NCBI RefSeq assembly: GCF_026210795.1
Contig: NC_089436.1
Location: 2,914,001-2,978,000, forward strand
From: Rhizophagus irregularis
Taxonomy: Eukaryota; Glomeromycota; Glomeromycetes; Glomerales; Glomeraceae
Direction: 5' to 3'
DNA: 64,000 bases
The notes beneath the pieces are model-generated. The model ran no database searches. It was not told where the DNA came from and worked only from the letters and a program-made list of their open reading frames with translations. Of the stretch, positions 31,649-61,789 are shown piece after piece (position 1 is the stretch's first letter; every line of letters starts with the position of its first letter). Both the position numbers and the translations under genes were made by a program.

Positions 31649-32531
31649 TAGAAATTGTAAAATTAAAACACAAGTACACAATGATAAGTTACATAACGCA
31701 TTACTTTTTATTATAAATTGATCATGCTGTAGCACCATAACAAACCTTAAATGATATGCATTATCCGATCAGCAGATCATCTTTTTTTATTTTATTTTCA
31801 CTCTCTAAAAATTTTATAATTTAAAAATATCTATCTATCTTAAAAAAAAAACCATTTACTTATTTAAAAAATGAAATAAAAAAAATTCTTTTTTATATTT
31901 AGAGACAACAGAGACAAGGAAACTAGAAATTTGGTAAAAGGCTTCCTTAAACTTTCACATTTCTTTATGAACCGTTGCTAACGTTTTGTTTTATTCTTTA
32001 GAATTCGGCTTCTTTGGATGTAGGGTATTGTTTTTATGTAGTTTCTATGAAACTAACTTTAAGAAACGTTTGCTAACGTTCCTTTCTTTTCTTTAGGTTT
32101 CTACAGACTATTCAAAACACGTAGCCATGGATTTTCTTTCATTGTTTCTTTGAAATTAGCTTTAAAAAACGTTTACTAACAGTTTTTTTCTTTTTTTGTA
32201 GATACCTAAGTAACACTTGCCAATCTAAATACCCAAACTATTAAACACCACAGCTATGTATATCTGACAATGGAACCAATAAAACAACATCAGATAATAA
32301 AAAGTAAAAGCAGAACAAGATATAGGAGAAATTAATTGCTATAATAAACGACAACCACAGCAAGGGAGCAACGACTACAGGTCCAGCTAAAGTAGGGATA
32401 TTATATAAAGTAAGTTTTTCAAAAGTTAAAGTAGAGAGACATCAGGTGATAATATGCATTGAGCGATCGTTAGTATATATATTCACTGGTCGAATGAAAG
32501 GATCAGGTAAACTTGGTTAATTTAGTATATA
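31649..32531 (+). other. Upstream of the tnp2 gene; short mini-intron array A
   Basis: From about 31915 the plus strand shows the mini-intron pattern: branch-like GTTGCTAACG then CTTTAG at about 32002, exon-like AATTCGGCTTC, branch-like TTTGCTAACG then CTTTAG at about 32096, and TTTACTAACAG then TTTTTTTGTAG at about 32203. The exon-like pieces share the GGCTTC core of the array at 33.6 kb. Confidence 0.45.
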
Positions 32532-33197
32532 CAGTGGCCTGCCAAAAGTGACCGACCACCTAAAAATTAATGACATCAGTTATTTTCATTAATAATTTTT
32601 ATATTTATTTTAAAATTAGAAATATAAAAACCTATTTTAAAGTATTTTTATACTTAATTAATAATAAAATTATGTATAAATATCTAATTTTAATGTAAAA
32701 AAAAAATTAACTTTTTAACCAGAGCAGCTAGAGCAAAATAGATAGCAAAAATCGATTTTTCAACTAAAAATTAGCTTATTTTCAAAAAATCAGAAAGTTT
32801 TAATCAGCAGTTCTTGGAAAAATCTGCTTTTAAATCATGAATTTTGGTGAAATTTTATAATTTTTATATGTAGATCATCAATTTTGCCGATTTTTAGGAG
32901 GGGATTTCTCAGCAATTACTAATCAAATTTTTCTGATTTTTTGAAAATAAGCTAATTTTTAGTTGAAAAATCGATTTTTGCTATCTATTTTGCTCTAGCT
33001 GCTCTGGTTAAAAAGTCAATTTTTTTTTTCACATTAAAATTAGATATTTATACACAATTTTATTATTAATTAAGTATAAAAATACTTTTTAAAATAGGTT
33101 TTTATATTTCTAATTTTAAAATAAATATAAAAATTATTAATGAAAATAACTGATTTTATTAATTTTTAGGTGGTCGGTTACTTTTGGCAGGCCACTG
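32532..33197. mobile_element. Fold-back MITE, 666 bp, arms of about 260 bp, TA target duplication
   Basis: The two arms (32532 to about 32795 and about 32935-33197) are nearly perfect inverted repeats starting CAGTGGCCTGCCAAAAGT, flanked by TA at 32530-32531 and 33198-33199. Only about 140 bp of unpaired centre remains. TA duplication and CAGT ends suggest a Tc1/mariner-type origin. No coding capacity. The high arm identity suggests recent insertion or ongoing arm conversion. Confidence 0.92.
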
Positions 33198-33570
33198 TAC
33201 AGTATATTAAGGACACTTTAAGCATCCCATTATATTTTAATATATTCCTGATGAATTTATTTTTATTGTGTATTTTTTATATAATTAAATAAATAATATT
33301 TTTTTAATGTACTTATGGCGCTATTTATTAATCAACTTTTATATTAATACAAAAACATAATTAAGTAAAGGCCACCCATCCAGCCTGCAGATGCGAGCAT
33401 TAATCAAATCAAATAAATAAGAGTAAGTAAAAATAAAAATAAAATAATAATAAACATAATATTTTAAAAACAATTTCTTACTTCTTCGGTCAGTCTTCTC
33501 CTTTGGAATTCGGCTTAAACGGCTTAGGACGTTCGTTTTTCTAGGAAACACCTTCCTGGAACTGGAATTT

Positions 33571-34345
33571 CGGCTTGAAGGTAAATTAGAGGAGGGATTT
33601 CATTCTTTTTGTTTTTTTTTTATTTAATTATTTTTCTAACGTTCCTCTTTATTCTTTTTTGTAGATTTCGGCTTCCGGATATTGGGTAAGTGTGTGGGAG
33701 CGCGTTCTTTACGAATTTACTTTGAAGAAACGTACTAACGTTTCTTTTTTAATTCTTTTTTGTAGATTTCGGCTTCCCGGGTTCTTTGGGATATTGGGTA
33801 AGTGTGTGGGAGCGCGTTCTTTACGAATTTACTTTGAAGAAACGTACTAACGTTTCTTTTTTTTTATTCTTTTTTGTAGATTTTGGCTTCCCGGTTCTTT
33901 GGGATATTGGGTAAGTGTGTGGGAGCGTGTTTTTTTGGAATTTATTTTGAAGAAACGTACTAACGTTTCTTTTTTTATTCTTTTTTGTAGATTTCGGCTT
34001 CCCGGGTTCTGGATATTGGGTAAGTGTTGGGTGTGCATTATTTACGAATTTACTTTGAAGAAACGTACTAACGTTTCTTTTTTTATTCTTTTTTGTAGAT
34101 TTCGGCTTCCCGGGTTCTTTGGGATATTGGGTAAGTGTGTGGGAGCTCGTTCTTTTGGGATTTACTTTGAAGAAACGTACTAACGTTTCTTTTTTTATTC
34201 TTTTTTGTAGATTTCGGCTTCCCGGGTTCTTTGGGATATTGGGTAAGTGTGTAGGGTGGTTTATTTACGAATTTACTTTGAAGAAACGTACTAACGTTTC
34301 TTTTTTTATTCTTTTTTGTAGATTTTGGCTTTCCGGGTTCTTTTG
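33571..34345 (+). repeat. Tandem mini-intron/microexon array B1
   Basis: Six consecutive units of about 105-115 bp each contain a complete set of splicing signals. Introns fit at 33686-33765, 33798-33879, 33911-33990, 34020-34098, 34131-34210 and 34243-34321 (79-82 nt; GTAAGTG donor, CGTACTAACG branch site, T-rich tract, TTTTTTGTAG). Between them lie microexons of 21, 32, 31, 29, 32 and 32 nt (33665-33685, 33766-33797, 33880-33910, 33991-34019, 34099-34130, 34211-34242) built on ATTTCGGCTTCCCGGG..GATATTGG. Lengths not divisible by three mean no reading frame is kept. The branch site lies in the hairpin GAAACGT-ACTA-ACGTTTC. Confidence 0.8.
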
Positions 34346-35270
34346 GATTCTTTTTTTACAGGTATCGGTAAATTGAGCTTCCTGTATCCTGAGACGATAG
34401 GATCAGTAAGTTTCGAAATAGTTTATTTTGAAACTTTTTTTTTATTTTGAAGATGCTAACCATTTCTCCTTTTGTCTATTTGTAGGTCTCTTCGATTTTT
34501 GGGTCAACTTCTTTCATTTTATTCAGTTCATCCAACATGCAATACAATTAGGGGTAAGTTTCGAAGCTCAACTGAACCTTGAAACTCAAATTTTTTTTAT
34601 TTCTCTTTTAGAAATGTTAATCAACATTTCTTGTTGCTTTTTTTTTTGTAGGATCCAGAATTGGTTATATGGGGTTTCGAAGGTATATACAGTACCTTCG
34701 AATTTTTTATTTTTTTTTTTAATGAAACATTTTTACTAATGGTTTCATTTTTTTCTTTTGTAGGTCCAAGACGCGACTGGATTCCTATTTCGAAGGTATA
34801 TATATACCTTCGAATTTTACTTTTTTTTTTATTTTTAACGAAAAGTTTTTACTAACATTATCATTTTTTTCTTTTGTAGGTCCAAGATGCCCATTTAGAA
34901 ACTTTGACTTTAACTTCAGGACTCAGAATCTGGATTCAGAATTTTTTCTTGTGGATTTATTTAACTATGGCTGATTTTATTCTTGTAAGTTTTTAAAGAT
35001 GGATTTGGGCTTTATTTTCTTTTTTCTTTAGGTGTAGCGAATTTAGCGCTGACTGGAATTTTTTTATTTTAGACTTAACATGGATTTTCTTTGGGTGCGA
35101 CGAATTTGGAACAATTGGACTTGTTTTTTGGAACAGACTTGAACTTAGTTTCGAATGACCATTCTTCGGCAAGTATGAATTTGGGATAATTTCTTATTTA
35201 ACATTTCATTAATTTTTTTTTTCTTGATGACATTTTTCAGGTTCCGGCAAGATTTCTTCTTTTTGAAATA
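34346..35270 (+). other. Continuation of the mini-intron array (B2), longer exons, hairpin donors
   Basis: Further introns with GTAAGTTT or GTATAT donors and TTTTGTAG acceptors end near 34485, 34652, 34764 and 34880. Exon-like segments are 30-110 nt (for example those starting GTCCAAGACGCGACTGG and GTCCAAGATGCCC). Four donors lie in hairpins: 34406-34436, 34554-34588, 34676-34702 and 34790-34815, the last a perfect 26-nt palindrome. Open frames across here are short and inconsistent, so a non-coding or decayed multi-exon transcript is most likely. Confidence 0.55.
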
Positions 35271-35289
35271 TGGGAAGTATGATTGTTAT

Positions 35290-35530
35290 GGTTTATGATT
35301 GTTATGGTTAATTAGTAGCTTAGAATAGGAACTTTACTATTACTTAATGACTTATTTACGACTCGAAAATAAAATTTTACTATAACTTTAATACAATTAT
35401 ACTATTTAATTACTATCTACATAATATGACTTTAATATGCATTTAATACAATTTGACTATAACTTAAATATACATTTAATATAACTTGACTATAACTTTA
35501 ACATAACTTTACGATTTCTACAATTTTTGT
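35290..35530. repeat. Degenerate short tandem repeats
   Basis: TGATTGTTATGG twice near 35280-35310, then repeated ATTTAATACAATTTGACTATA-like units to about 35510. No gene. Confidence 0.5.
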
Positions 35531-35604
35531 ATGACCAGGTGATGATCTCCTTAATATACATCAACTTTATACATACGATCAACTTAAGCTTATCGTGATG
35601 ATGT

Positions 35605-35676
35605 GAAACCATATCGTGGCCAAATCTTGGATATAAGGTCTACAATAAATTTTCGACTTAGTCACGATATGGTTTC
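35605..35676. other. Strong hairpin, 14-bp perfect stem
   Basis: GAAACCATATCGTG at 35605-35618 is inverted at 35663-35676 with a 44-nt loop. It lies between the end of the plus-strand array and the convergent minus-strand gene, so it could act at the RNA 3' ends or be a MITE core. Confidence 0.55.
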
Positions 35677-35730
35677 GATTATAAAAATTTCTGCAATGTA
35701 TTTCTTAAGAATAAAAACATATATATTGGT

Positions 35731-36640
35731 TTATACTCTATCTGGGTTGTCTCGACTCCCCTGATTTTTCACAACACGCTTTTTGTTTTCATTCAAATCT
35801 TCGTCCTCTATATCCACAACTTTATCATCTTTCGCGATTGCACTTGATGCCATTGCTGATTCTTCGATTTCATTAATTCTATTACTAAAATTTGTATTCA
35901 AGCTGTTGTATTCTTCATTTTCTTCTTTACTTCTTGGTATTGTCAAAATCAAAGGTATTTTGGGACTTGTTAGTGCGCCTTCAAATTGTTCGTCCTTTGA
36001 TAAAGAATGTGCACTATCATCGTGTTGTCTTTGTATTTCGCAATTTTGTTAGATTTCCGTTCTTACCTATAATCTCATCTTGACTTTTCATCTCTAATTC
36101 TTGTCCATCTCTTCTTCCATCATTGATTTGTATATTGCTCTCATTAGGTTTTGTTCGTTGGTAAAATACATCAAGATATATTTCAATTTGTTAACTTTGA
36201 TGATTTTGGTGAAATGACCTCTGAATTTTTTGATATAAGATTTAATAATCGTATACTCTGTTTTTCCAATTTCATTCTTGTTTAATTTCTTTATCGCTTG
36301 CCAAACTCGAAGCTGATACCCAAAAAAGAAATAAAAAAAAAATAAAAAGATTATATTTTTTAATAAAAAAAGTTTCGAAAAAATGAAACTTTCGAAACTT
36401 ACCGATCCAGCATTAAGGGTCAATACCTAAAAAAAGAAATAAAAAAAAATCAGAATAATTTTTTAAAAAACTAAATAAAGTTTTGAAACTTTCAAACTTA
36501 CCAATCCAAAAAGCTGATATCTACAAAAAAACTTTTTTTAAACTTCTGTTAAGAGTTAAAAAAAGATTATCATTCAGCACACAAACCATAATTGACTAGT
36601 CCGATCAGCCAATTCTTCGTTTTGACTAGTTGATTTTACC
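35731..36640 (-). CDS. Unrecognised gene led by mini-introns (RRM-like segment, acidic tail)
   Basis: Reading leftward from about 36640: a conserved leader (see 36561-36615), then microexons with donors in hairpins at 36478-36502 and 36371-36402. A coding segment follows at about 36315-36094 (VWQAIKKLNKNEIGKTEY, then HFTKIIKVNKLKYILMYFTN), whose strand-helix pattern resembles an RRM-like fold. After a stop there, a second frame at about 36042-35731 encodes an acidic Ser/Asn/Glu-rich stretch ending KKRVVKNQGSRDNPDRV. The two frames may be joined by an intron I cannot fix, or the gene may be broken. Function unknown; nucleic-acid binding is a guess from the fold pattern. Confidence 0.4.
36561..36615 (-). 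promoter_or_regulatory. Conserved 55-bp leader of mini-intron genes (minus copy)
   Basis: It is almost identical (about two differences in 55) to 41990-42045 on the plus strand, with core GACTAGTCAATTATGGTTTG. In both copies it lies just upstream of the first microexon (ATATCGGCTTTTTGG type). It is a likely promoter or 5' leader. Confidence 0.6.
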
Positions 36641-39065
36641 AATTGGTCAAAAATATGCCGATTCATATGACCAATATTAAATTATTTTTTTTGAATTAAT
36701 ATTCTTCAACTAATATTTAAGAATATTTCTGGTTTATATCCGATTTGTAATGACTACCGGTAGCTCCTTATTTTACACAAATTTACTCTAATTGGCAATC
36801 ATGCCAGTTGAACAATGTTTTACCTGTGATAAAAATCTCATGGATGATGTTTGATGAACATTTTTCCCGTTGAGGTTTCAGAAGTTTGGTTAGTTTACTG
36901 TTTTTTCATTTGTAACTTTACAAACATCTGTTCCTTTTCTTTTTAGGTTTCAGGTGATGATTTTTTGTTAGTTTTCATTTCGTTTTGACTTTTTTTTTCT
37001 TTTTGTCTTCTTTTGCTAACTTTCATCTTTCTTAATATACAAATATTGGAATTGCAATATTAATACATTATATTGTGTTTTATTAATAAATTAATTAAAT
37101 TAAATTACATTTAAGAATCATAAATAAAATATAAAAATCAGAATTTTAAATAAATAAAGGCATTAATTTGCCGATTTCAATTGATTGATTTGTCAGCCAA
37201 TTTAAAATTTGGACGAAATGGATTGACTATTCAAAAAATTTTATCTGGAAATTGATAAACATTTTTGAGCAATTGCCATGTTATACAAGCAGATTTGTTT
37301 ACATTTTGCAAATTTTATGGTAAAAATCAGCAGCATAGCCACTGGTCACATCAGGAATGTGAAACTCCAAATCACGTTATTTTTGCAATGAACTATTAAT
37401 GCATTGCAATACAGCGTGTGTTTAATCAATTAAAAATATATTTTTTATTTTGAAAAGTTACTTTGCTAATTTAACCGAAATAAGTTGTTAAAAATAATAT
37501 TTTTGAAGACTAAAAATAAATGAAACCCACTAATATGAAATTGAAACAAAGAAACTAAAAAAAAACCTACTCTCTGGAGTTCCAAGAATTTTCATTAAAA
37601 CCAGTATAAAAAAACCCATCTTTTAAAATTCGAATTCTATACTAAAAAATACCTCATATAATTATTATTAATATATCTTAAATAGTTAAAAAGAGTCAGA
37701 TGGTATGACAATTCCTTGAATGTAACCTGTCTTTTTAAACCCAGGTATAAAAAAATATGTGTTCTTTAGATTTTCTGATCAAATTAGTATACCATCAAAT
37801 GAGAAGTATATAATATAAAAAGTATAGTCTAATACATTTAATGTTTGAATGAACAGTGCGCAGCTCAGCGTGTGACACTGAATTTTATGGTGTGTACAAA
37901 TAATATTTTGGTAACATAACAAAAATATTAAATTTATTTGATATTAAAAATGATTGAAAATTATCATTACTGATTAAGAAATGCTCACGTTACATAATTC
38001 AATTAATTTATACAGATAAATCTTTTATAAATAAAATAGTTTTTTTTAAATAATTTTACATTATATAAATTTGTCTACCAAAAATTAAGTGGGTTTTTTA
38101 TTATGTGGTTTACTGCTCTGGATTTTACAGTAGAAGGATATTTAGAAAATCAAATTAATAATAAATTGTTTTTATTCTGGCTGATGAAATTTTACAAGTT
38201 TACAGTATAGTTGATCACATGTGATATATTCGCTAGGAAGCAATATGACTAATCCATTAAGTTAATATCTTCAGTTTAACAAGTTTTTTAATTACAAAAA
38301 ATATTGAATAAACCTGATGATTATGGTTAATCTAAATCTCCCAAATTTTTTTTTTTTTTTTAATAAATCGCCACATATTTTATTTATTAGTCTTGTTATA
38401 AAGCGAGTTTTATGTTGCAAAAATATGCTTATCAGTTATCATTTCTTTAAGTAGAAATTAGCCACTTTTAATATTGCACTAAAAAGGTAAAGCCAAATAT
38501 TTTTTTTATAAGCCTAAAAATATACGTTACAAAAAAGCAGATTATCAATTGTCATTTCTTTAAGCCATTTTTAATATTGCATTAAAAAGGTAAAGCCAAA
38601 TATTTTTTTATAAGCCAGAAATAGGCTTATTACTAAAAAAGGCTTATATCACTGGTTTAACTAAAGGGAATAGCTTAAAAAGTATAAGATTAAAATTAAT
38701 GACAAAGCTTAGTTTGAAAAATAGAAACGTTTTTGTTTACTGTATTTTTATTATAAAAATGATGTATTTTTTCCCTAAACAAAAATTTGAAAAAAATTGC
38801 ATGAATTTTTCAAGTAATTTTACCATATTTTGTTATAAAAATGATGTATTTTTTCCTAAATAAAAAAACTGTACGAAATCAATCTGAAATAACTTTACCG
38901 TATTCTATCATAAAAAAAAAAAAAAAAAATAATAATATAAGTAAATCAAAAAAATATGGATGTATTTACAATTCTTTCGCGATGTCAGGAAGTGATATTC
39001 ACGAGAAAGGTATTTGAAATATATGTTCTGTTATAAAATATGTAATTTTTCTTAAATAAAAAATT
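36641..39065. other. AT-rich region with local repeats
   Basis: No gene supported. A direct repeat of about 80 bp (38430-38512 and 38539-38618; core AAAAAGGTAAAGCCAAATAT) and several copies of ATAAAAATGATGTATTTTTT between 38750 and 39060 are visible. A solitary CTTTTTAG acceptor-like site near 36944 resembles the arrays. Confidence 0.45.
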
Positions 39066-39609
39066 ATGAATTTTCCTATACCAGACAAAAAAATATTGCG
39101 TGATATTCATGAAATTAGTATAAAGGCTATTAAGGAAGTACATACAACAACCGTAAGAACTTGTGAAAAATTACTTTCCTCTTCGTCCTCCTCCTCCTCA
39201 TCTACTATGTAAATATTTTTTAATTATTATTTAATTTTTATATTTCAAATGCTAATTTTTTTCAATAATTACTAGTTTATCTCAAACTAAATCAATAAAT
39301 ACAGTATTAAAATGCTCTACTTCTAAATTAATTTCAAGTAAAATTTCACATTATTTAATCCATTTATTAAATATTTATTTAAATTTAAATTAAATTATTA
39401 ATAAACTTTATATAGAAACGTCAGAAGTAGAAGATCCAAAAAGCGATAAATGTACGTATTGCTTTAAAAGAGGTCATTGGCTGAAGGATTGCCAAGAAAT
39501 TCCTGATAGATACAAAAGTTGCTGTTTCAAGTGTTGGAGGTCAGATTCGCACAAAATCACCGAATGCCCATCAATTACTAATAAACAACCTCTGTGGTTA
39601 AAGAAATAA
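39066..39609 (+). CDS. Small zinc-knuckle protein
   Basis: The part at about 39417-39609 encodes two CCHC zinc knuckles, CTYCFKRGHWLKDC (Cx2Cx4Hx4C) and CFKCWRSDSHKITEC (Cx2Cx5Hx4C), then stops after QPLWLKK. An upstream segment from ATG 39066 to about 39208 encodes MNFPIPDKKILRDIHE and a poly-Ser run, followed by an intron-like stretch. CCHC knuckles bind single-stranded nucleic acid. It may be a host RNA-binding protein or derive from a mobile element; the exon join is uncertain. Confidence 0.5.
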
Positions 39610-39859
39610 GGTAAATTTTAGAATAATTAGTAATTGGATATTTTAACAGTTAACAAATATTAATTCTTAATTTTTTTTTTATTTCGAATTCACAATTTTT
39701 TTCAATCTCAGGTTTCTCTCTATTTCTCTCTATTTCTCTCTATCTCTCTAAAACACTCCATCTCAATTTTTTTCCGATTTTTATTTTTTTTGAACTTCGT
39801 CCTCCGAACGACAATTTTTTTTTTGTAATTTTTTTTTGATTTATAATCAATTTTTTTTT

Positions 39860-40379: not shown

Positions 40380-41592
40380 AAAATAAAATTTCAAAATGAT
40401 TCATTCTGCTATCCAGAAAATTGAAGACCAGATCTACAAAAAAATAAGAAAACATTAGAAAACGTTTTCTAAAGAAAGAAAAAGTTTCAAAATGATCAGA
40501 ATTTAACGCTTATCGCCCAATAAATGAAAACCAGAACCTATAAAAAGAAAAAGGATACGTTAATAAAATGATTTCCTAAAAAAGAAATTAAAGGAACGAT
40601 AATTAAGTTTCATTTTAAAACTTACCATCAACTGTTACCCAATAATCAAAACTCTGAAATCTACAAAAAATAAAAAGAAATATCAGTATGTTTCTTAAAA
40701 CTAATGGTGAACTCCATTCCCCCCTAAAAAAAATTTACCATTAGCGGATTAAATTCAACCTTTTGGTGAAACCAATACACCTGCAAAAATAATAAAAGAA
40801 ATGTTAATACGTTTTTCTAAGTAATATTAAAAAACTCTTTCTCAACGGACATTTTCAAGGCCAGAGTTCATTCCTATAAAATAAATAAAAAAGGACGTTA
40901 TAAACCGTTTCTAATAACAAAAAAAGCAAAAAAAAAATAAGTTTTGCAACAAAATGTTGCGAAACTTACCGAATCCAAATTCAAGTTTGACAACGGGACT
41001 ACAAAAAATAAGAAAAAGAAATATTAGAATGTTTCTAAATCAAAAGTGTTCAAATGTGAAGCTGAAAGACCCACAAAAGAAAGAATAAGAAATGTTAGTA
41101 ATGTTTCTTAAAAATAAAAGGCAAAAGTTCTAAAGCAAAAGACTTCGAAACTTACCATTTCCAAACCATTCAAACGTGAAGCCAAAAGACCTACAAAAGA
41201 GAAAATAAAGAACGTTAGTAACATTTCTTAAAAAACAAAAGTTTTGAAGCAAAAGGTTTTGAAATCTATCATTTCTGAATCGTCCAAATGCGAAACTGAA
41301 ATCTACAAAAGAGAAAACAAGAAACGTTAGTAAAGTTCACTAATGTTCCTTAAATCCCCATTTTTTTAATTTTTACCTTCCATTGAATCTGATCCGTTCT
41401 CTATTTATTATCCAAGACGTCCAGATAGGTACCTACAAATAAAAAAAAGGAACGTTAATAAATTTCCTAACATTCAGCTTCTCGCGCCTAATTCTCACCT
41501 AATTCATGAGATTCTGGCTCCAAAAGTGGTGTTTCCATTCGTCCCTAGTCCGGTAGCACCTATAACTTTCTTGGTATTTGTTTTATTAACCG
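40380..41592 (-). other. Mini-intron/microexon array D
   Basis: Reading leftward: a first exon at about 41560-41499 with a GTGAG donor, a second at about 41436-41380, then microexons such as GTCTTTTGGCTTCACGTTTG. Acceptors of the CTTTTGTAG type and branch sites of the TTACTAAC type precede them. Donors lie in hairpins at 41125-41155, 40938-40969 and 40604-40625. The first two exons are paralogous to the first two of array F (45.86 kb). No continuous reading frame is present. A coding-like tail (FNKVLEEIKAKELQYRKKAL) lies just upstream at about 41806-41722. Confidence 0.55.
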
Positions 41593-41989: not shown

Positions 41990-42045
41990 AGAATCGGCTG
42001 ATCGGACTAGTCAATTATGGTTTGTGTGCCGAATGATAATCTTTT
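41990..42045 (+). promoter_or_regulatory. Conserved 55-bp leader of mini-intron genes (plus copy)
   Basis: Nearly identical to the inverted copy at 36561-36615. It is followed by a T-rich tract and a TTTTTTGTAG acceptor, then the microexon ATATCGGCTTTTTGG at about 42092. Confidence 0.6.
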
Positions 42046-43771
42046 AGAAGCTTTAAAAAGTTTAAACTTTTTTTTTTCTTCTTTTTTGTAGATATCGGCT
42101 TTTTGGATCAGAAACTTTTTTTTAATTTTTTATTTAAAAAAAATTTGATTTTTTTTCTTTTTTTAGATGTCAGCCTTTTCTTTGGGCTTTTCGAGGCAGG
42201 GGTGTATTTTTTTTCTTCCTTTGGATTTGGATCGGTAAATTTTGAATCAAAACTTACCCTTTTTTTTTAAAAAAAAAATATTACTCTTTTTGGTATCGGT
42301 TCCTTATGATGCAGGTTATGATGTTAGTGATTCTAACGCTTTTGCCGTGTATGATCAATATGGAATGCATCCACAATATTCCCAATTCTGTCCTGATTAT
42401 GGTGCTGGTTATCCTGGATCACTCCTCTCCAAGGTCAAGCTTCACCGTCTCTACCTCCACAGCCTTTGAGTCCTTATTTTGCTGCTACGGTGCGATTTAA
42501 CAATACAATGGGAAGTTTCGAAGGGAATCGATCGCAATGCTAAACGTTCGATAAATGAATCAAATAAGAGATCTTTGATAGTCATTGAAGATACAACGTC
42601 TACTTCCGATAATGTAGAGATATACAATGATCCACCAAGGGACACACAAACTTCACGATATCATATCCCTACACAAGAGAGCGGTTTTGATTTGCCCTTA
42701 CCAGAATGAAAGATCAAGCGCTTCTTTTTGCAAAAAAATACTTCTTGTATCTTTGAGCATACAATCTTTAGAGAGCATTAAGTTGTATTTTAGGATGAGC
42801 GGGTAGAATTAAGTTGTGAAGGGGCAGCTTTAGATCTTGGATTTGGTGAGTTTTGATTAGAAACTTACATTTTTATTTGTATTTTTTTTTTTTAAATTCT
42901 TCTCTTTTTTACAAGGTAATTCATACGAGTTACTTCCAAGACGTGGCTAAATATAATTATACTTTCAAGTATGGAAAACTGGTGCGTTTTGGAAAAAAGT
43001 TGGTATATTTCAAAGACAAAACTCAACTGGACGCAGCAATCACTTTGGATGGAGAAGGATAAAGACCACGGCTGGACTATTCATGGAAAGGGTCTTAACG
43101 GTGCAAATTTGGAACTCTCGGAAGGGGGAACTGGAAGTGCTCTCGTAAGCTCTCGTCCATCGAGCAAACACAGAAGTAGATCTTCAACTCAAAAGTTGAA
43201 AGAGAATGTAACGCTAGGGACTGTAGACGTGAAAGACACGAAAAAGGTAGTAGATACGATAAATAAGTTTAGACAAAATGTGTTGGATGAAAGTTTTCCA
43301 CAATTCGTATCGAACCCAATAAAAGAGTACGCTTTCCCGGAACAAGTGGTAGAGATAGTTAAAAACTTCAGAGATGGATAAAGAAAAAAGCCCAGAAAAC
43401 CAACCGATGGTCCACAACACGACACCAAAATTGGATTTTACGGTAGAGGATAAAGAAATGAAAGAATGGATGGACTTTTTCGAGTTTAATGAACTAAAAG
43501 TTATGAATAAATCGGAGGAAAAGAAAAGTATAAAGCAAGTCACTCCAGTAGAAATACACGAATATAATACCGTTAACGCTTCATGCTTGACAAGGAAGAT
43601 TGTGTAAAAGAAGGTAAGAAGCGAATTATCGGTAAGCAAGGGGATAGAAGTAAAGTGGAGGATGAAGAAGGCAGGGAAGAGCGGAAAACATTTAGAAGTA
43701 GAGGTAAATCGAAGTCGAGAAATCTTAGAGGTAGAAGAGCTAGAGGTAGAGGTAGAGGAAGAAGATATTAG
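42046..43771 (+). pseudogene. Unrecognised mini-intron gene with Tyr/Pro-rich start and RG-rich end
   Basis: Microexons with hairpin donors (42235-42257, 42846-42868) lead into coding-like segments in several frames. These are a Tyr-rich stretch near 42305-42420 (DAGYDVSDSNAFAVYDQYG), a Ser/Thr/Asp-rich stretch to 42708, an RRM-like stretch from about 42910 (VRFGKKLVYFKDKTQLDAA) to 43381, an acidic stretch to 43607, and a basic tail ending RGRRARGRGRGRRY at 43771. Frames change between segments, so the gene is either decayed or spliced in a way I cannot fix. Low-complexity Tyr plus an RG-rich tail suggests RNA binding; the family is not recognised. Confidence 0.4.
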
Positions 43772-44560
43772 TCGCAGGTATAATTATGAGAGTTTTTTTT
43801 TTTTCATATAGTAAATAGCACTTTGGTTACGTTAGTCGTTACTTCGCTTGAAATGTGAAGTTTTGGTATGGAGAGATTTAGTATAGAAATTGTTTTTTTG
43901 TACTAAATTTCAATGTATTTTTAGTTTTTTTTAACAAGTATTATGGTGATCTACATTTTACGAATAAAATAAAAATGTGTTTACAAAAAAAAAAATAAAT
44001 AAATAAATTCTTCTCTTTTTTTTTGTAGGTATCAGTTTCTTCAGCTTTGGAATTTGGATTGCCGGTATAATAAGTTTTGATTTAAAACTTCAAAACTTAC
44101 ATATTTTCTTTAATTTTTTTATTAGTTTTTACTTTTTTTGTAGGTATCAGTTTCTTTCTTTTTTTTTGTAGGTATTCAGATTTTTTGGCGTTAGACTACT
44201 TATTTCTCGACGTTGAACGGCACTTTGGACTTTTTTCTTTTGTAGGTCAGCGTCTTGGAGTAGTCTCTCTTGGAATGGTAAGTGTCTTTTTGGTGGGTAT
44301 GGTGATGTTAATGGCATTATGAAATTATACTAACGCCATTTTTCTTATTTAAAAAAATTTTTTATTATAGGACCTTCAGAACACTTCGGAACCAAAGAAA
44401 CTCCCTGAAAGGTATTTATTAAAAGTAGGAGGGGAGTTTTTTTTAAATTGAACACTAGTAAGCTTTATTAACATTCTGCTTTCTTTTTTTTTTATTGTAG
44501 GACCTATAAAACGGCCAGAAAAGAAGTGGAGATGGTTTAAATTGGAAATAATATTAGTAA
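43772..44560 (+). other. Mini-intron/microexon array E
   Basis: Introns end with TTTTGTAG or TTATAG at about 44028, 44144, 44172, 44245, 44371 and 44501. Exons are short (for example GGACCTTCAGAACACTTCGG). A donor hairpin with stem TAAGTTTTGA/TCAAAACTTA lies at 44071-44099. No open frame is kept. Confidence 0.5.
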
Positions 44561-45239
44561 ATAATACTAATGTATTTCTTTCTTTTGTATGTTTCAGTAG
44601 GTTTTATTGGATAGATAGTATATACATATGGGTAATTTTAGGATTTATCAAATTAGTAAATTAGTTTATTGATAAATTGTATTTTAAATTATTGATAATA
44701 AATATAATATTTGTAATCAATTCAAATAATCGGTACATTTCTATTAAACAATTAATTACAATTGGAAGGTTCTATAATATATAAACTAAAAAATTAATAG
44801 CAATCGGAGATACTGATAATCAATTTGACAAATCAGTTATTTATTTTTTAATATTATAATTGGTTATGTTCTGATTTGACCATCAATATTCTCCCAACCG
44901 GCATCCGATCAGCGCCAAATAAGGATGACTATTGGCATCCGATTGGATGTTGATTTGCCAACATTTGACCTGTGTAATACTATTAAACTATATTGCTGAT
45001 ATATCATATCATTTGATCTGTGAAATTTATTAATAATAATTAAATTTAACATTTTGCGCATGTATAAAATCAATAATAAGATAATAAGAATTTTAAAAAT
45101 TTAGCAATGCGCACATTTTTTTAATATGCGACCTTGTATTATATTAAAAAAACTGCAAAACATTTCGCAGTTTTTGCAAGTTTCACAATTTTCATTTTTT
45201 TTTAGTTTTTGAGAAACGTTTCAATTAGTTTCTCATATG
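44561..45239. other. Intergenic, no feature seen
   Basis: AT-rich sequence without repeats or coding signals that I can support. Confidence 0.4.
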
Positions 45240-45930
45240 TCAGCTGGCTAAACCTCTAGGTTTCGCCCAGCAACCTTACTTGCCAGTTCAAAATGACATA
45301 GTCCAAAACAACCAATATTGCCATGATATCTCCTGACCCGATATTCCATCATTCGACCGGTGCATATTGGTTCTCTACAAAAAGAAAAATGAAATGTTAA
45401 AATGTTTCTTTAAGTAAAATCCCAATCAAATCTTCTATAGCAACATACCCAAGTTCTCCAAGCAATGTTGCTCTAACCTGTACCTTTCAAAGTGTTCAGG
45501 TAGGAGGTATCTACGGTTAAAAAAATGAAAGAAACGTTAGTAAAGGTCCTACTAACATCCCCTAACTCCCAATTCCCAGTGCCTACCTTTCATTCAGAAT
45601 CCAAAGACAATATCTTTGTTCAGACGTTCAAGTAGGTACATACAAAAGAAAAAAAGACAGAAGAAATGCTAATAAAGTTTATTAACATTCCCTAAATCAC
45701 TCCCTGGTTCCCACCTTCCATTGAAACCGATCTCAAGTTCTGAAGTCAAATATCCAAGGCGTCTGGTAAGTTACCTACAAAATAAAAAGAAATCAAAAGG
45801 AACATTAGTAAAATTATACTAATGTTCCTTAAATTCTGCTCTCAACGCTCAACTCCCACCTAATTGAGATTTTGGCTTCAAAGTGGTATTCTTATTCCAA
45901 TTATATTTGTCCATATTCTGGTAGTATTTA
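45240..45930 (-). other. Mini-intron/microexon array F, paralog of array D
   Basis: Reading leftward: first exon about 45925-45860 (donor GTGGGAG), second about 45775-45727, then exons near 45635-45590, 45510-45480 and 45370-45330. Acceptors are TTTTGTAG or CCGTAG, and branch-like TTACTAACG or TTTTAACA lie upstream of them. The first two exons align with those of array D (shared CACTTT.GAGCCA.AATCTCA and TTCAATGGAAG ends), showing duplication of a whole transcription unit. Confidence 0.5.
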
Positions 45931-46681
45931 AAACTTTTCTTTAAAAAATTATTTTTTTTCGCCTTTTCTTTTCCACCGGCTTAAAAAAAATGAAAAAAGA
46001 AAAAAATGTTTTTTTTTAAAAAAAGATCGAAAGATTTATCAATCTCAAATGGGGATAAGTTTTTATATCCACTGTTAAAAAGTCCAAAATATGAAACTGG
46101 TATTTTATTAAATCAAAGATTGATCTTTACCAAATCAGAAAAGATATGTATCATATTACGTCATACTGTAATTATATTAAAGAACAATCGCGTATCGCAT
46201 AACTGAAATTTTTTGTTTATGAATTATGAAATACTACTGCTAATAGTTTCCTGAATCCTGACAAGGAGCCTAACAAGCTGATAAGTACTGATAGCATAAA
46301 AATTTACATTTGATATTTTTCTTTGTGCTTTATTTAGTAAATCATGATACGTGTCATGATATATGATATGATTTGTGATCAACAATTTATTTGTTTGTAA
46401 TACCATTCTCAATCTCCGATTATAAATAATGAATAATTTATTTACTTGTCTGTTACATGATTTTTTTTCTCATCAGATAATTTATTTTTTACGTTTTTGA
46501 CACATAACGTGCATAACATGCAGTAACATGACTTTGTTTTTATAAATCTATAAGTCTCGCGTTATATTGTTTCTCTCAGGCTTTACTTTTACCTGTTTAG
46601 CTGTTTATTTTAATGCTCAAAACAATGAAAAAACGAAGTGGAAATATTAAAGGAAAAGCTGAACAACCTTTAGTCAGGTAA

Positions 46682-50334: not shown

Positions 50335-50790
50335 GATAACTAATTGTCATGCATGCATCCGAACAACTCGCTTATGGCTCAAGGCATATGCAATGGGATG
50401 ATTGGTGTGATCACAGATGTGGACCCTCAAAATGAATGTACATAAGTTACTTTCTCTGTGGAAGGATCCATAGTTGATGTGGACATATACAAGCACACCC
50501 ACTATTTTGAAGCTCAATGGATTTAATTGCCGTCATACTCAGTTCCCTTCAGTTTGCAAAACTGCTTTGCCCTCACTGTACACAAATACAAGGATTGATC
50601 TTGCCAAGGGTCTGCCTAACTTTGGATGGAAATATAAAGCACCTGGACAAGTGTATGTCACCCTTAGTAGTAGGTGTACGATGTGGAATAATATTGATAT
50701 ATCCCACCTTGATGCTTTAGCGTATATGACTGATTGGAATGTCATTTGAAGTATCAGAGGTTGACCAACATCTCTATCTCAAATCCTTAC
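50335..50790 (+). pseudogene. PIF1-type helicase C-terminal relic
   Basis: In shifting frames the strand shows QGICNGMIGVITDVD, then VTFSVEGS, then LPSYSVPFSLQNCFALTVHK, then GLILPRVCLTLDGNI, then APGQVYVTLSSRCTMWNNI. These are, in order, the C-terminal motifs of PIF1/RRM3-like 5'-3' DNA helicases (the HKSQG and GQ.YVALSR motifs). Several stops and frame changes make it a pseudogene. It may come from a host PIF1-like gene or a Helitron, since Helitrons carry this domain; no Helitron end was recognised. Confidence 0.7.
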
Positions 50791-51246
50791 CTTTTTACTG
50801 ATTGTGCTGATTTTGACATATACACACATATTTCATATAATTTTGATTTCAATTATTACATTATTTATTTTTTTAATCATATTTATTTAAAATGTGCAAT
50901 ATTTGTTAGCCATGTAAAATAAGACATATAATAAATATATTTATAGGATCAAATTATAATCAATATTCAATAGTTTATTAATTTAATAAAAAAAAAAACT
51001 CTATTGCATCTTTTCCAGAGAATTTAAATTACAACAAAATCAATTCCTTAAAATTAATTTTTAATTCATTTGTCGATAATATAAAATAATATATAATATT
51101 ATGATATCTAAAAATGTTAAATCTATCATAAAACAAACTCCTTGACACGTATATGTATGAGTTTAAAATAGTTAAAATTGGTGGCAACAAAGTTTACCTG
51201 GTATTTAATATGTTGGGACTAATTCAAGTCAAATAGATAAATAGGA
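50791..51246. other. Intergenic, nothing recognised
   Basis: AT-rich sequence at the 3' side of the kinase-Sel1 gene. Confidence 0.4.
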
Positions 51247-54200
51247 TTAATTTTTAATTTCTTGTTGATTTAAAAGAACATCTAAATTCTCTTGAACATC
51301 TAAACATCCTGATTCTACAACCTTTTTATACCAATAAATAGCGATTTCTACATTTTGTTCAGTCCCTTCACCTTGTTCATATAAGTATGCAAGACTTATT
51401 TGCGCATCAATGTTTCCTCCTTCTGCTGCTATTTTATATATCTCAAATGCCTTTACTTTATCAATATCAGTTCCAATTCCTTTTTCATAAGACTGTCCAA
51501 GTTTATATTGAGCGTCAATAAATCCTTGATCAGCTGATTTTCTATAAAACTCAAATGCTCTAACTTTATTTTCCAAAACACCTTTACCCAATTCATATAG
51601 TTCGCCTAATTTATATAATGTAAGTTTATTGTCATCTTCTGCAGCTTTGTGATACCAATAATTAACCTTATCTAAATCATTTGCCATTTCTTCAAAATTA
51701 TCTTTGAAGTTACTGCCAGCTGCCTTATTATATAATTCAAACCCTTTTTCTCTATCAACTTCAGTTCCAATACCATTTATATAGCAATATCCAAGGTAAA
51801 ATTTAGATTCCTCATCTCCATCTTCGGCTGATTTCTTAAAATATTCAAATGCTTTAATTAGATCTTTATTCACACCATTTCCTAATTCATAACATTCACC
51901 TAAATTATATAATGCTGTTTTACATCCACCCTCTGCTGCTTTGTTATACCAATCAATAGCTTTTTCTAAATCTTTCTCAATTCCTTTACCACATTCATAT
52001 AAATAACCAAGGTTAGTTTGTGCAAGAACATACTCTTTTTCAGCTGCTATTTTATATAATTCAAATGCTTTTGTTTTGTTGATTTCTGTTCCAATACCTT
52101 CATCATAACAATATCCAAGTTGATATTGAGCATCTACATCTCCTTTTTCTGCTGCTATTTTATAATATTCAAATGCCTTCTTTTCATTTTTTTCCACTCC
52201 TATTCCTTCTTTATAATTAATACCTAAATTATATTGTGCTTCCATACTTCCATTTTCTGCTGCCTTATTATACCAGTAAATAGCAATTTCTAAATTCATT
52301 TCTGTACCTTCATCACGCTCATATGATACTCCTAAATTATTTTGTGCTGCCATATTTCCATTTTCTGCTGCCTTATTATACCAGTAAATAGCAATTTCTA
52401 AATTTATTTCTGTACCTTCCCCACACATATATAATACTCCTAAATTATTTTGTGCTAAATTATTTCCTTTTTCTGCTGCTATTTTATAATATTCAAATGC
52501 TTTTGTTTTGTTGATTTCTGTTCCAATACCTTCGTCATAACAATATCCAAGTTGATATTGAGCATTTACATCTCCTTTTTCTGCTGCTATTTTATAATAT
52601 TCAAATGCCTTCTTTTCATTTTTTTCCACTCCTATTCCATCTATATAACAATTGCCCAAATTATATTGTGCTATTTTGCTTCCATTTTCTGCTGCTTTTT
52701 GGAAGTAATAGAATGACCTTTCATAATTTGATTTTAATAATAACTTTCCAACATAATAAAAACCAAGTTGACTTAAACTTTTGTGAAATAATATTTTATA
52801 AAATTTAGTTTTTTTAGAACTGTCTATTTTAATTTCTACTTTTTTATTGTAATAGTTCTTGAGATTTTTTTTTGCTATTATACTTCCATTTTTTGTTGCT
52901 TTTTCATACCAACATTTTGCTTGTATCTTATCTATCTTTGTTCCAATTCCTTTATAAAAACAATTGCCAACATATAATTGAGCATCAGCAATTTCATGCT
53001 TAGCTAAGCTTTCATAATTTTTAAATGCTATAGTCTCATTTTTTTCAACTCCTATTCCTAATCTATAACAATGTGCAAGATAAAGTTTTGCAGTGGTATT
53101 TCCATTTTTGGTTGCTGAATTATACCAGTAAAATGATTCTTTTACATTTTGAGTAATTCCAATACCATATTCATAACAATTGCCTAAATAAAATTTCCCA
53201 ATAATACTTCCATTTTCCACAGATTTTCGATACCAATGAAATGCCAACTTTTTATCTTTTTCAGTCCCATATCCATCATAATAGCATTTAGCAAGATATA
53301 CTTGTGCAATTGGATAATTAGCATTTGCTGCTTTTGAAAACAATTCAAATGCTTTAATGACATTTTCTCCTACACCAATATTATAATAATAAAATAATCC
53401 AAGAAACCAAATATATTGTGTTTTATCCCGATTATTTAATAACCATTTTATAAGTTGATCCGTAGCTTGATTTATTTGTAACATATGTTTAATTATTAAT
53501 TGTTTAGCTTGATCAAATGTAGTACCTCTATCATGTTTTTTAATTATATAACTAATTAACTTATCGGCAAACACTCCATGTATTGACTCAATTAGATTAA
53601 CTGATGATAGGGAAGATTGATCTGATGAAATTGATGAGCTATGTAATTGATTTTGTGAATTTGTCCTACTTTCACATGTATTAATATTTAATGATGCAAT
53701 ATATGACATAGTATTTAGATTTGATATAGTATTTAATATTAAACTATTATCAATATTTAGATCTTTGTTTATATCCATGATTACCTTGCTTGATTCTGAA
53801 TTTGATTTATATTTTTCCAATGAAAAAGAATTTTTTTTGTATTCATTGAAGTTACAAATAATTATTTCGGAAGAAACAGTTGCTTTAAGTGTTAAAAAAA
53901 TTTCTCGCATATTTGGGCGCTCATTTGGTTCATGTTTCCAACATTCTAATGAATCAGTAAATAAAATTAATATTCACGATATATTGACATACTAGTACTA
54001 AATTATATTATATAATTATTACCTGTATATAAGTTACAATATTCAACGGGAGTTCCATTAATAATCTCTTCTCTTTTACCATTTAATATAGACAACATTA
54101 AACTTGGGCCATAATTAACTTCACGAAAAGGTTTATGTCCACTTGAAATTTGCCATAATAAAACTCCGATACTATATACATCAGATTTTTTATTTAATTT

Positions 54201-55044
54201 ATATTTTTCTTTATCGTCGAAACTTTTTGGGTCCACATAAGGTATTACGCCAAGTACTTTTGATGCTGACGACGCTTCAACAATTTTTTTTGATAAACCG
54301 AAGTCTGCTACTTTAATATTTTTCTGATGTATGAGTATATTGTTTCCATGCTTTAATTACATAAAAAAAAAATTAAAGTCTATGTCATAGTAAACAAGTT
54401 TAAATAAGAAAAAAATTATTACCAAGTCACGATGAATAATATCTTCTTCATGTAAAAATTCTATAGCACTAGCCAGCTGCGACGCTAAGTGATATTTGTC
54501 ATTCCAATCAAGTTCACTAAAATACTCGTTTAAATAAGTATTTAATGTGCCGCTATCAGCGTATTCCAAAACGAAAGAATACTTTTGGTTTACGTCTAAA
54601 TAAAAAAAAAAATTTTAATAGAAGGAAACGGTTTATTACGTAATATATAATATATTTAATACCTACCGAATTCCATCTTTGTGATTCCATATAACCGTAT
54701 AATATTTTCATGATAATCAATATTTCGGTGTAATTTTAACTATATAAAATTGATCTTAGTTATTATCCAATAAAAGTTTTTTAAAAATATTTATTGTATA
54801 CAACATATACCTCTTTTAAAACTTCTTTAAGAGTTTGTTTGTCATTAACAAAAGATTTTAAAGCGAAATAACGATTGGAGTTTTTCCAATTAACACGAGA
54901 AACATTTCCGTAGGAACCATTTCCTATCTGTTGAATATTTTTGAAGTCTGAATATTCATATAATTTGATGTTTTCATCGGCAATTGATCTCTCTAACCAG
55001 TTAATATAGTAATTTAAATCTTTTGTTTTGAAATCTTTTGACAT
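51247..55044 (-). CDS. Protein kinase-Sel1 repeat fusion, 1,168 aa, five exons
   Basis: Exons: 55044-54811, 54739-54667, 54595-54423, 54350-54023 and 53945-51247. Introns are 71-77 nt and GT-AG, and all phases agree. The kinase domain spans about residues 38-290: glycine loop [12 protein letters not shown], lysine in FALKSF, catalytic HRDL with HGNN across an intron, [22 protein letters not shown] and [12 protein letters not shown]. The key residues are present, so an active Ser/Thr or tyrosine-kinase-like enzyme is expected. A Ser/Asn-rich linker of about 150 residues follows. From about residue 449 to the end there are about 19 Sel1-like repeats. This kinase-Sel1 architecture is strongly expanded in Rhizophagus. 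The last five repeats match the genes at 1-843 and 7366-9666. A four-repeat block is duplicated almost exactly (52059-52206 and 52491-52638). Confidence 0.95.
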
Positions 55045-55527
55045 TTTCTTTTTTTTTTCTTTATCAAAGTTCGGTATTTAAATGATTTGCGTCTTGTAAA
55101 TCATTTCTTATTTTGTGTATTTTTTTTCTTTTGATTGTAACAAAAATATTCACATGATCATCTGCACAACAACAGTGTAACATTTTCTTACCATATAACT
55201 GTAACTTTCGCATAAACCATAAATGATTCATGCACGCTTTTTGAAATTATTGAAACAAGATTAAAAAAATTGGTGATTGCATAATAGAACATCTTTACCA
55301 TATTTTTTTTTTTTTTTTTTTTTTTTTTAAATAGTAACGCGTTTATTAATTATTTGAATTTATAAAATAAATTACATAATTAAAATTAAACACCTAGAGC
55401 TTGAAAAATTCAAACCCTATAACTAAGTATTTATCGAACTATAACTAAATCTATCGTAAAAATTAAAAATTTCACACTATATCTAAATATCACTAAACTA
55501 TATCTAAACTAGATCGTTCGTTAATTT
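55045..55527. promoter_or_regulatory. Upstream region of the kinase-Sel1 gene with a long poly(T) tract
   Basis: T/A-rich; a T-run of about 26 nt lies at about 55303-55328. No core promoter element can be identified with confidence. Confidence 0.3.
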
Positions 55528-55900
55528 GATTGTTGTACTTTGCTAACAACCTAAAATTTTATAAATGTATTGTAAAATTATTGTCACAATAAATTGTGTA
55601 CAAACCATGATAAGATACTTGTTATTGGGTTTGTAGGGACATTGTACAATATGCTTCTATTACAAATTTTGATATTAATTTATTGATATGTAGTAAGATT
55701 GATTACAAAAATATATAGTGGAAAAGCGTTGTAAAATTAATTATAAAATGGAAATTGTAAATAGATCGTAAGATAAATATTAAAAATTTATTATAAAACG
55801 ATTTGTTATACATGTAATGTAAATTTAAATAATAAAAATAAATTGTGTAATTAATTATAAAATATATATATATGTGTGTAATGAATAGGAATAAGGCAAT
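55528..55900 (+). mobile_element. Old LINE 3'-end fragment
   Basis: TACTTTGCTAACAAC and AAAATTTTA.AAATGTATTGTA, in this orientation, match the last codons and 3' end of the LINE ORF at 60185-61804 (there on the minus strand). The match then decays into A/T-rich sequence with TGTACAA motifs. It is a diverged, 5'-truncated copy. Confidence 0.5.
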
Positions 55901-56094
55901 TTAAGAATCATAAACTCTCGTAGCCACGCTCAATTAAGGAAATGTATTACTAGACCTATGCTAAAGATGACTTTAGCAAGGCTTTCTTTGTGAATTAAAG
56001 AAATTTCATACACCTTGCCAGCTGGTGGGAAAGCCTATGATTTTAACCCAAATCTCCAAATCCCAAATCCCCAAACATCTAGAGACCTGAATCA

Positions 56095-57285
56095 TCTAAA
56101 AAAAAGAGGAAATTGAAATGTTGTAAAATATTTCATTGAAATGCATAATTAGAACAGAGTCTCACACTCTCACCAAATTTTCCATGTGTTCAAGCCAACC
56201 AACTGAAAAGAAAAGATGATGAATGTTAGTGACTATTCGCTAAAAGAAAAAATTTGAAGAAAAAAGTTAAATAACTTACAAAGTTCGCGTCTAAAGAAGC
56301 CAATTGTCTAAAAAAAAGAAAAAAGAAAGTTAGTATTTGTTTGTTAAAGTAAATAACTTAGTAAAAAAAAAATATATCTTACCAAAATTCTGCATCTAAA
56401 CATTCAAAGAACTAAAGATCTATCTCATTTATAGGTTAGCATTTCATTAAAATTAAACACACTGTAATCTGCATCTCTAAAGATATCCAAAGAAGAAGCC
56501 ATCTAAAAAAAGAGAAAAAACAAAATGTTAGCAAATGTTTTGTTAAAAAAATAATTAAAAAATAACCATTTCTACCAAATTCCCACACGTCCAAGAATTA
56601 AGCCATCTAAAAAAAGGAAATCGAAATGTCAGTATTATGTTTCAATAAAAATAATTCAGTACTAAAAAAAATGGATTATTTTTTTTTATAACTTCAATAA
56701 AAATACATACAATACCGTAAAATAATATCTTGTTATCAATATTTTTAACATACTCTAAATTTTTAAACACATGTTTAATTGCTGAACCTTTGTTAAGAAA
56801 GAAAAAGCTTGTAGGGAAATATCAAGTCCTAAAGAAATCCACCTAAAAAAAGTAAAAATCAAAATGTTAGTAAATGTTTCGTTAAAAGAATAATTTAAAA
56901 GAAAAATAAAATTCCTACCAAAATCTTATGAATTAGCCTAAAGACCAAAGACTGCATACCTAGTTGTCTAAAAAAAAAAGAAAAAAAGAACTAAGAAACT
57001 ATTCAATAAAAACAATTGAAGAAAAAAAAAATATGAACTTACTGAAATGTAGTGTCAGGAAGATTGAGAGAACCACTTAAATATAAAGAATATTTAAATG
57101 GAAAGTACAGGAAAAAAGGACAGGAAGAGGGAAAGAAAGGACAAAGGAAAGGTTAAGAGAAAAGGAAATGAAATAGGATAAAATGATAAAGGATTTGAAA
57201 TTAAAGGTACAGTGGTAAAAGTTAAAAAAAAAGTTGTTCATCATATTTATTAATTTTAATCACATGATACATGTGAAATATGGCC
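56095..57285 (-). other. Mini-intron/microexon array G1
   Basis: The minus strand carries at least eight units: donors GTAAG/GTAGG, branch sites of the CTAACATTT or CTAACTTTC type, acceptors of TTTTTTTAG type, and microexons of about 30-45 nt such as ACAATTGGCTTCTTTAGACG. It begins downstream of a long pyrimidine-rich tract (minus strand, about 57190-57080). A 20-nt motif CACATGTATCATGTGATTAA (minus, 57275-57256) lies above that tract. No reading frame is kept. Confidence 0.5.
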
Positions 57286-58560
57286 GATATTAACTAAAAA
57301 AAAAGCAACCTGTCAGTAAACATTTCATTATTTGATTTAAAGTAAGAAAAAAAATCCCCTCAGTTCTCCTTACCGAATTCTCACGCGTTCAGATACCAGA
57401 AGACTGGCCGTCCACAAAAAGAAGGAAAAAGTAAAACGTTAGAATTATTTCGTTTGAAAGAGTTATTTATATCAATTCCCTTACTGACTTTTCCACATAT
57501 CCGAGTATTCCAAGGAACCAATCATCTGCAAAACAAAATAAATGAAATATTATTGATCGTTTTGTTAAAAAAATAAAAATAAAAATCTCCACAGAATTTT
57601 TCATGCATCCAAGTACCTTAAAGAATTGATTATCTACAAAAATGAAAAAATTGAAATGTCAGAAACATTTCGTTAAAAGAATTATTTACTTAAAGAATAG
57701 AACTCTTCATATCAAATTTTCCACATGTTCAAATAACTTAAGAACCGGCCTCTACAAAATGAAAAAAATTGAAATGTTAGAAATGTCTCATTTAAAGAAA
57801 TAAATTTAAAATAAATAATTCTTGTAATCTCCTACCAAATGCTACGTGTCTAAAAAAAGCATAAAATCAAAATGTTAAAAAAGAATATTTTCTGATTTTA
57901 CTACTATGCGTCCCAAAGACCTCAACTAAAAAAAATTTTAAGTCCTCCTACTAAAATTTCATGCGTTCAAAGGCCTGGCCATCTAGAAAAAAATAAAAAT
58001 AGATAGAAGCATTTTGTATTGTAAAATAAATAATTATGAAAAAAATCTTCCCACCATATTCCTATATGTTTAAATATCCATAGAACCAAACCATCTAAAA
58101 AAATTAAGAAACAAGCCATTAAAAATCGTTCATTAAAATAAAACAAAAAAATAAATCTTGACAAACTTACCAAAATGTCACATCCAGGAACTGTAAAAAA
58201 AAATCGAAACATAGAAACATTTCATTATCTTGCATGATGTGATTTTCAACCTTTTTTTAAATCAAGTACAAAATAGGAAATAATAAGGAAATAGAGAAAT
58301 GGAAATAGGAGAAATGGAAAAAAAGAAAAGGGAAAATTTTTGCTGAAAAAATAAAATATAACCAATTAATAGATAAGCTTCGTTAAAATGAATAAAAAGA
58401 AGTTAAAAAAGCTTAAAAAAAAGATCTGCAAACTGAAAAAAAAAAATAGAAAATAGTGTAGAAATAATTAATTATTTTTTTTTTTTACTTTTTTTTACGA
58501 ATATGTAATGATATAATATATGAAATAAATAAATACAAATTAAAGTAACTAGTATCAGTT
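57286..58560 (-). other. Mini-intron/microexon array G2
   Basis: About nine units on the minus strand. Microexons follow a loose consensus GGTTCTTTGG.TACTTGAAC.CGTGGAAAATT with G|GTAAG or TG donors (for example near 57395, 57500, 57610, 57730, 57965, 58075 and 58180). The branch hairpin GAAATG..CATTTC is at 57653-57671. It starts downstream of a pyrimidine-rich tract (minus, about 58330-58260). It is a tandem duplicate of array G1. Confidence 0.5.
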
Positions 58561-61768: not shown

Positions 61769-61789
61769 CGGGCTGGATGTGGGTCTCGC

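Follow-up and report, generated by a model that had tools for sequence, protein, structure and literature searches.

The locus examined here raises the question of what kind of gene or repeat is built almost wholly of very short introns and very short exons. The window, that is, the whole stretch of DNA analyzed (64,000 nucleotides of Rhizophagus irregularis, contig NC_089436.1, positions 2,914,001 to 2,978,000), was searched for splice signals, hairpins, open reading frames and known families. Candidate introns, each followed by a microexon, are repeated in tandem in eight blocks, referred to below as arrays A, B, C, D, E, F1, F2 and G. The locus is a real and unusual one, with gene-like arrays of tandem intron and microexon units whose splicing may be regulated by RNA structure.

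Splice-site arrays and unit structure

A strict 3' splice site was defined as a branch heptamer, a T-rich tract and YAG, and both strands were scanned against 30 dinucleotide shuffles per stretch. Such sites exceeded the shuffles 10- to 20-fold in three stretches and were mostly confined to one strand: 31801-35400 (14 on the plus strand and none on the minus strand; 0.7 expected), 40301-46100 (3 on plus, 11 on minus; 1.0 expected), which holds blocks in both orientations, and 55901-58600 (none on plus, 14 on minus; 1.4 expected). Positions 1-31800 were at chance level (5 sites, 4.5 ± 1.7 expected), and 46101-55900, with Sel1-repeat and kinase open frames, had 3 sites (1.4 expected). The main arrays are real, oriented and arranged in separate blocks. 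The first-pass annotation of this DNA had placed arrays throughout 31915-58560; arrays are present there, but they are interrupted by a gap at 46.1-55.9 kb and extend past 58560, with one array near 63.9 kb.

By hand, 44 donor-acceptor pairs were listed, and together with the scan they bear out the order previously proposed for both strands, in which a donor is followed by the branch site, the T-tract, the acceptor (here YAG) and a short exon. Some units excepted, donor, branch site, T-tract and YAG follow one another as in spliceosomal introns. A unit is about 110 nt long and comprises a spliceosomal-type intron of roughly 75-85 nt and a short exon, often of 30-40 nt; the units stand head to tail. 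The median intron was 79 nt (44 listed, with some ends one to a few bases off). Five near-identical units of array A were omitted from the acceptor list, leaving 42 acceptors, and conservation of the acceptor is a circular measure, as the units had been picked by it. Microexons of 20-45 nt with a GGCTTC or GGTTCTT core had also been described. The core is enriched: of 42 exon starts, 7 carry the exact form (0.4 expected) and 13 the looser form GGCTT/GGTTC (2.6 expected). It reflects the shared descent of a minority of the units and is not universal. Lengths were broader than described, with 19-68 nt in a set of 33 exons and 14 to 106 nt among the other listed exons.

The eight blocks were compared pairwise with a low-complexity filter and E below 1e-5. 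Matches comprised 66 in sense and 2 in antisense, and a further 2 appeared when one sequence was reversed; the antisense matches lie where the compared C stretch overlaps array D and carries its copy of a repeat shared by B and D. Each block was linked to at least one other. The longer matches between blocks were 58-73% identical, compared with 91% among the 112-bp units of array A. F1 and G have a common leader, 31 bp of which, in the G version, are present in F2. This looks like a single unit family that was amplified in tandem, after which whole arrays were duplicated.

Hairpins at donors and branch sites

Twelve units had been reported to carry the donor within a stem-loop, and all 12 do fold, with minimum free energies of -13.7 to -1.9 kcal/mol; the weakest are 42235-42257 (-1.9 kcal/mol) and 36478-36502 (-2.4 kcal/mol). 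These hairpins join the donor with the intron interior, not one intron end with the other. A stem score of 20 was reached by 5 of 14 donors (the 12 listed and two more) and by 0 of 71 donor-like sites in 1-31800 (mean 12.6), a contrast that is biased because the 12 had been chosen for their hairpins. Among 31 donor candidates not chosen in this way, some of them false, the mean stem was 14.7 versus 11.8 in shuffled sequence, and eight had p of 0.05 or less. At 41 branch sites, the best palindromic stem averaged 13.6 versus 8.9 ± 0.4 with shuffled flanks, and p was 0.05 or less at 17 of them, including six in the near-identical A units. Palindromes at the splice signals are common among the units; some are still long, others have decayed.

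Stem arms were compared as matched and as swapped among units. In free register, branch arms scored 14.97 when matched and 12.82 ± 0.44 when swapped (p 0.00005; within blocks p 0.0001; 36 units), and the folding energy of the same units gave p 0.0002 (within blocks 0.006). For the donor arms (14 sites), the free-register stem gave p 0.0085, or 0.011 without one duplicate, and the folding energy p 0.00015.

Whole introns were folded with corrected donors and without the five near-identical A units, leaving 39 acceptors; six of these (36312, 42311, 42920, 45642, 45514 and 57405) are decayed or a few bases out of place. Introns of arrays A-E folded better than their dinucleotide shuffles (n = 26, mean z -1.08, p 0.006), the block means being -1.52 in A, -1.49 in B, -1.25 in C, 0.01 in D and -0.94 in E.

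Coding capacity

The lengths of the 33 exons left remainders of 0, 1 and 2 in 10, 8 and 15 cases; 10 of 33 were thus multiples of three, and no single phase prevailed. Their open frames numbered 58 (55.8 ± 3.6 in dinucleotide shuffles) and their stop triplets 49 (57.6 ± 4.9). Spliced open reading frames were searched for in six stretches with unspliced read-through allowed and 60 shuffles; the 5' part of D lay outside the search (no candidate intron was found there). In five of the six testable stretches (C, the 3' part of D, E, F1 and F2), the best spliced frame was no better than in the shuffles. A non-coding RNA made of microexons, as suggested in the first-pass annotation, is possible on this sequence evidence.

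Weighing of the explanations

The explanation towards which we lean, by a modest degree, is that the arrays are splicing-competent tandem microexon genes that are probably non-coding or no longer coding and whose units were amplified whole. In its favor are the largely one-stranded excess of strict sites in three stretches, the sense similarity that links the blocks, a young array next to older and more diverged ones, the leader common to F1 and G, exon lengths and open frames like those given above for the 33 exons, spliced frames no better than shuffles in five of six stretches, and donor palindromes, branch-site palindromes and A-E introns that fold beyond their shuffles. One array would be one transcription unit, giving a pre-RNA that, in the present arrays, would carry about 2 to 14 mini-introns. 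These could be removed by the spliceosome, with the microexons joined into a short RNA, and the mature product would not code for protein or would have ceased to do so. Units would multiply through unequal crossing-over or slippage, which would work because joint copying of intron and exon leaves every new copy spliceable. The weakest step is the last: hairpins at the donor and the branch site, passed on with each unit, may lower or tune the use of single splice sites and so cause units to be skipped. A stronger version, in which a family of long non-coding RNA genes consists of nearly nothing but tandem mini-introns and microexons and the hairpins choose among the microexons to give many isoforms per amplified unit, seems improbable to us. 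If the units are spliced, the arrays would show how an intron and exon can be multiplied together while still spliceable, a route to many-exon genes unlike that of introners. The near-identical six-unit array beside its diverged relatives makes an age series within one locus, possibly of an early-diverging fungal lineage.

Several results weigh against non-coding, splicing-competent microexon genes. Splicing of the units is a prediction from sequence. The small blocks B and G showed no enrichment in the strict scan (2 sites versus 1.1 expected in 35401-40300, and 1 versus 0.7 in 58601-64000); they are counted as arrays because of their similarity to other blocks, and G is linked to F1 alone. 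Several units are decayed, with donor or acceptor lost and TAG now TGG, so some arrays may be dead. The five D introns have no fold signal (mean z 0.01), the F introns no significant one (n = 13, mean z -0.36, p 0.19), and the difference between A-E and F is not significant (p 0.18); the signal in array A depends largely on two tandem copies, with z of -6.0 and -4.2. To these are added the fixed-register tests of the stems and the open frames of arrays A and D, both considered next.

The first-pass annotation had suggested, from stems that differ in sequence yet stay paired, that an RNA structure is under selection. This is partly supported: the free-register swaps favor matched arms (p 0.00005-0.011), but covariation in fixed register is not significant (p 0.13-0.66). 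The sets were small and the units related. Of the branch stem, 31 of 32 units were kept, and 75.8% of positions were paired versus 74.1% (p 0.13; within blocks 0.28); its two inner pairs were most often CA opposite CA (6 of 31), a state in which neither pair forms. In C and E, five long stems had 57 of 60 positions paired (p 20/120), and the donor core, at 11 of 14 sites, 70 of 77 (p 0.66). Because these tests were null, compensatory change is not claimed. On the assumption that CG opposite CG is ancestral, most branch-stem changes would have been to CA or TG. Palindromes that arise by template switching would look similar, and such palindromes, or inherited ones, may account for much of the matching between arms; selection on hairpin pairing is possible.

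A family of micro-exon genes that code for proteins, perhaps secreted and fast-evolving ones, with microexons for short F/G/W-rich peptides, partly decayed and with hairpins that set exon inclusion, is possible yet doubtful. Once joined, the exons of array A keep two frames open, one over 108 codons and the other over 83, and its best spliced frame is borderline against the shuffles (p 0.049); pieces of D stay open for 68 codons and run into a coding-like stretch, and the stop-triplet count given above leans the same way. In an earlier set of 38 exons, open frames were also above mononucleotide shuffles (65 versus 51.8 ± 4.1), an excess read as an effect of composition; it is gone with dinucleotide shuffles, in the different set of 33. 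Set against this are exon lengths that are not multiples of three, near-identical A exons that differ in length by 1, 3 and 11 nt, and the spliced frames of the other five stretches, which do not surpass the shuffles. No GT donor is present at the first D junction, and the sole D frame submitted to Pfam (42920-43381) had no match. Because A and D keep open frames, a coding ancestor of the arrays is possible, but these frames do not suffice to establish a microexon gene that still codes.

It is unlikely that the arrays are a satellite-like or transposon-derived repeat with incidental splice-like signals that are never used. Their tandem layout, both orientations and decayed copies would suit such a repeat, as would the transposon remains nearby (a tnp2 transposase at 30304-31104 and a palindromic element at 32530-33199); against it, branch site, T-tract, YAG and often the donor keep their order and similar spacing in blocks about 60% alike, and the left half of the window has no excess of splice-site signals. 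Introner-like spread, in which mobile introns multiply into new sites, was another reading offered at first and is very improbable. Many similar introns with predicted hairpins are indeed present, as in the fungal introner-like elements of PMC9024468 (as far as the excerpt of that source goes), but the listed hairpins do not join the two intron ends. Intron and exon have been copied jointly, in head-to-tail order, and the genes of 1-31800 are at chance in the strict scan, because of which this reading is left unsupported. The copies of the intron seen within the window belong to the arrays, one unit-like intron (42846) lying in the coding-like stretch of D.

Individual arrays and their surroundings

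Array A spans 31.9-35.2 kb on the plus strand. Its older 5' part (31903..32207) has three diverged intron and microexon units with acceptors at 32001, 32096 and 32201. The young core (33581..34348) consists of about six 112-bp units with 91% matches, exons of 21-32 nt and introns of 79-84 nt, the branch site lying within the palindrome GAAACG-TACTAA-CGTTTC. The units of the 3' part (34349..35240) are diverged, and their donor hairpins are at 34406-34436, 34554-34588, 34676-34702 and 34790-34815. Inside the array, a 670-bp palindrome at 32530-33199 matches its own inverse at 89% identity and has ends that resemble terminal inverted repeats; it is probably a mobile element that splits array A.

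Array B (36309..36570, minus strand) has two units, with donor hairpins at 36371-36402 and 36478-36502, and is paralogous, in inverted orientation, to the beginning of array D. The inverted pair, 36427-36620 and 41986-42166, is 73% similar and spans the starts of both arrays and about 50 bp upstream, which suggests a duplicated gene start. Array C (40400..41560, minus strand) has about nine diverged units, some decayed, and donor hairpins at 40604-40625, 40938-40969 and 41125-41155. Close to it, at 39851-40102, are about four tandem copies of a 61-bp sequence, 95% alike and each with a T-run and TATCAG.

Array D is on the plus strand. The units of its 5' part (42040..42314, donor hairpin 42235-42257) precede a frame-broken coding-like stretch, and the first exon has no GT donor. 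That stretch (42306-43780) is richer in GC, has broken frames and, by eye, an arginine/glycine-rich end; it contains a candidate intron at 42846..42915 (plus strand, donor hairpin 42846-42868). Further units lie beyond it in the 3' part (44029..44600, donor hairpin 44071-44099). In three units of arrays B, C and D (36313-36325, 41058-41080 and 42283-42300), TGG stands in place of the expected TAG acceptor; at the first two, the next AG is 7-9 nt inside the exon and is a possible shifted acceptor.

Array E (45330..45937, minus strand) has diverged units with a 66% relation to array C, and three of them have 12-pair branch-site stems (GU counted). Array F1 (57290..58220, minus strand) consists of old, diverged units without a significant fold signal. 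Array F2 (56060..57095, minus strand) is about 60% like F1 and has, by eye, a pyrimidine-rich leader. Of array G (63856..64000, plus strand), cut by the window end, the first unit is present and is 70% like the first unit of F1. A 195-bp element lies upstream of F1 (59762..59956, minus strand) and, 90.5% identical, upstream of G (63010..63202, plus strand), both copies being oriented alike with respect to their arrays. Short hairpins were seen in it by eye. It may be a shared promoter-like leader or a mobile element.

The window is AT-rich (GC 23-35% per 2 kb). A Pfam search of 10 of its 49 listed open frames identified two with Sel1 repeats, one with TLDc and BACK, one kinase fragment, the tnp2-type transposase mentioned above and one zf-CW below its cut-off; four had no match. 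This mixture is in keeping with a Glomeromycotina fungus such as Rhizophagus. The BACK and TLDc domains are in the first copy of an inverted pair (11812-13379 and 16485-18077, 80% identical). Positions 1-840, 7363-9666 and 51231-53973 share DNA identity of up to 88%, the last two being the Sel1-repeat frames. At 49224-49667, about two tandem 231-bp copies, 99% alike, each have a donor-like site (GTAAGT) and an acceptor-like one (CAG). Exact patterns of the unit and of the 195-bp element had no matches in collections of viral and genome contigs, which says little, as neither is a collection of fungal genomes.

Comparison with known systems

The first-pass annotation had recognized no known repeat or gene class, and Rfam likewise gave no family at gathering score in the window. 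Among the titles and abstract openings of the matches listed, no published description of arrays of tandem intron and microexon units was found, which is no proof of absence. Tandem small nucleolar RNA (snoRNA) host genes are composed of tandem intron and exon units, and their spliced RNA has no coding value. The present arrays share the tandem units; they differ in the Rfam result, which new snoRNAs would escape and which was not accompanied by a hand search for C/D and H/ACA boxes.

Schistosome micro-exon genes (MEGs) also have many tiny exons per gene. According to the excerpt of PMC10526429, these measure 6-81 bp and are in majority multiples of three, and the introns range from 100 to nearly 5000 bp; here, 10 of 33 exons are divisible by three and the median intron is 79 nt. 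The aphid bicycle genes, as the excerpt of PMC9168663 presents them, have unusually many small internal exons and a fast-changing sequence with the architecture kept, in both of which the arrays resemble them. Nearly all of their internal exons are of one phase, whereas all three remainders occur here and no common frame was found. The SP7-like effectors of arbuscular mycorrhizal fungi, possibly from a related group, likewise form a gene family built from repeats (excerpt of PMC11333574), but these are protein repeats, with an intron apparently before the first repeat in all members and not one per microexon.

Fungal introner-like elements and sister stwintrons come close in having sequence-similar introns with predicted stem-loops, among them stems in which a branch site and a donor lie. 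In the excerpt of PMC9024468 each such intron stands singly, at its own place in a host gene, whereas here intron and exon were amplified jointly in tandem; that paper found the predicted structures not to be conserved across species, a caution for the present arrays too. The arrays are therefore filed under none of MEGs, bicycle genes, introner-like elements and stwintrons, because the first two keep frame or phase and the introns of the last two sit singly in host genes.

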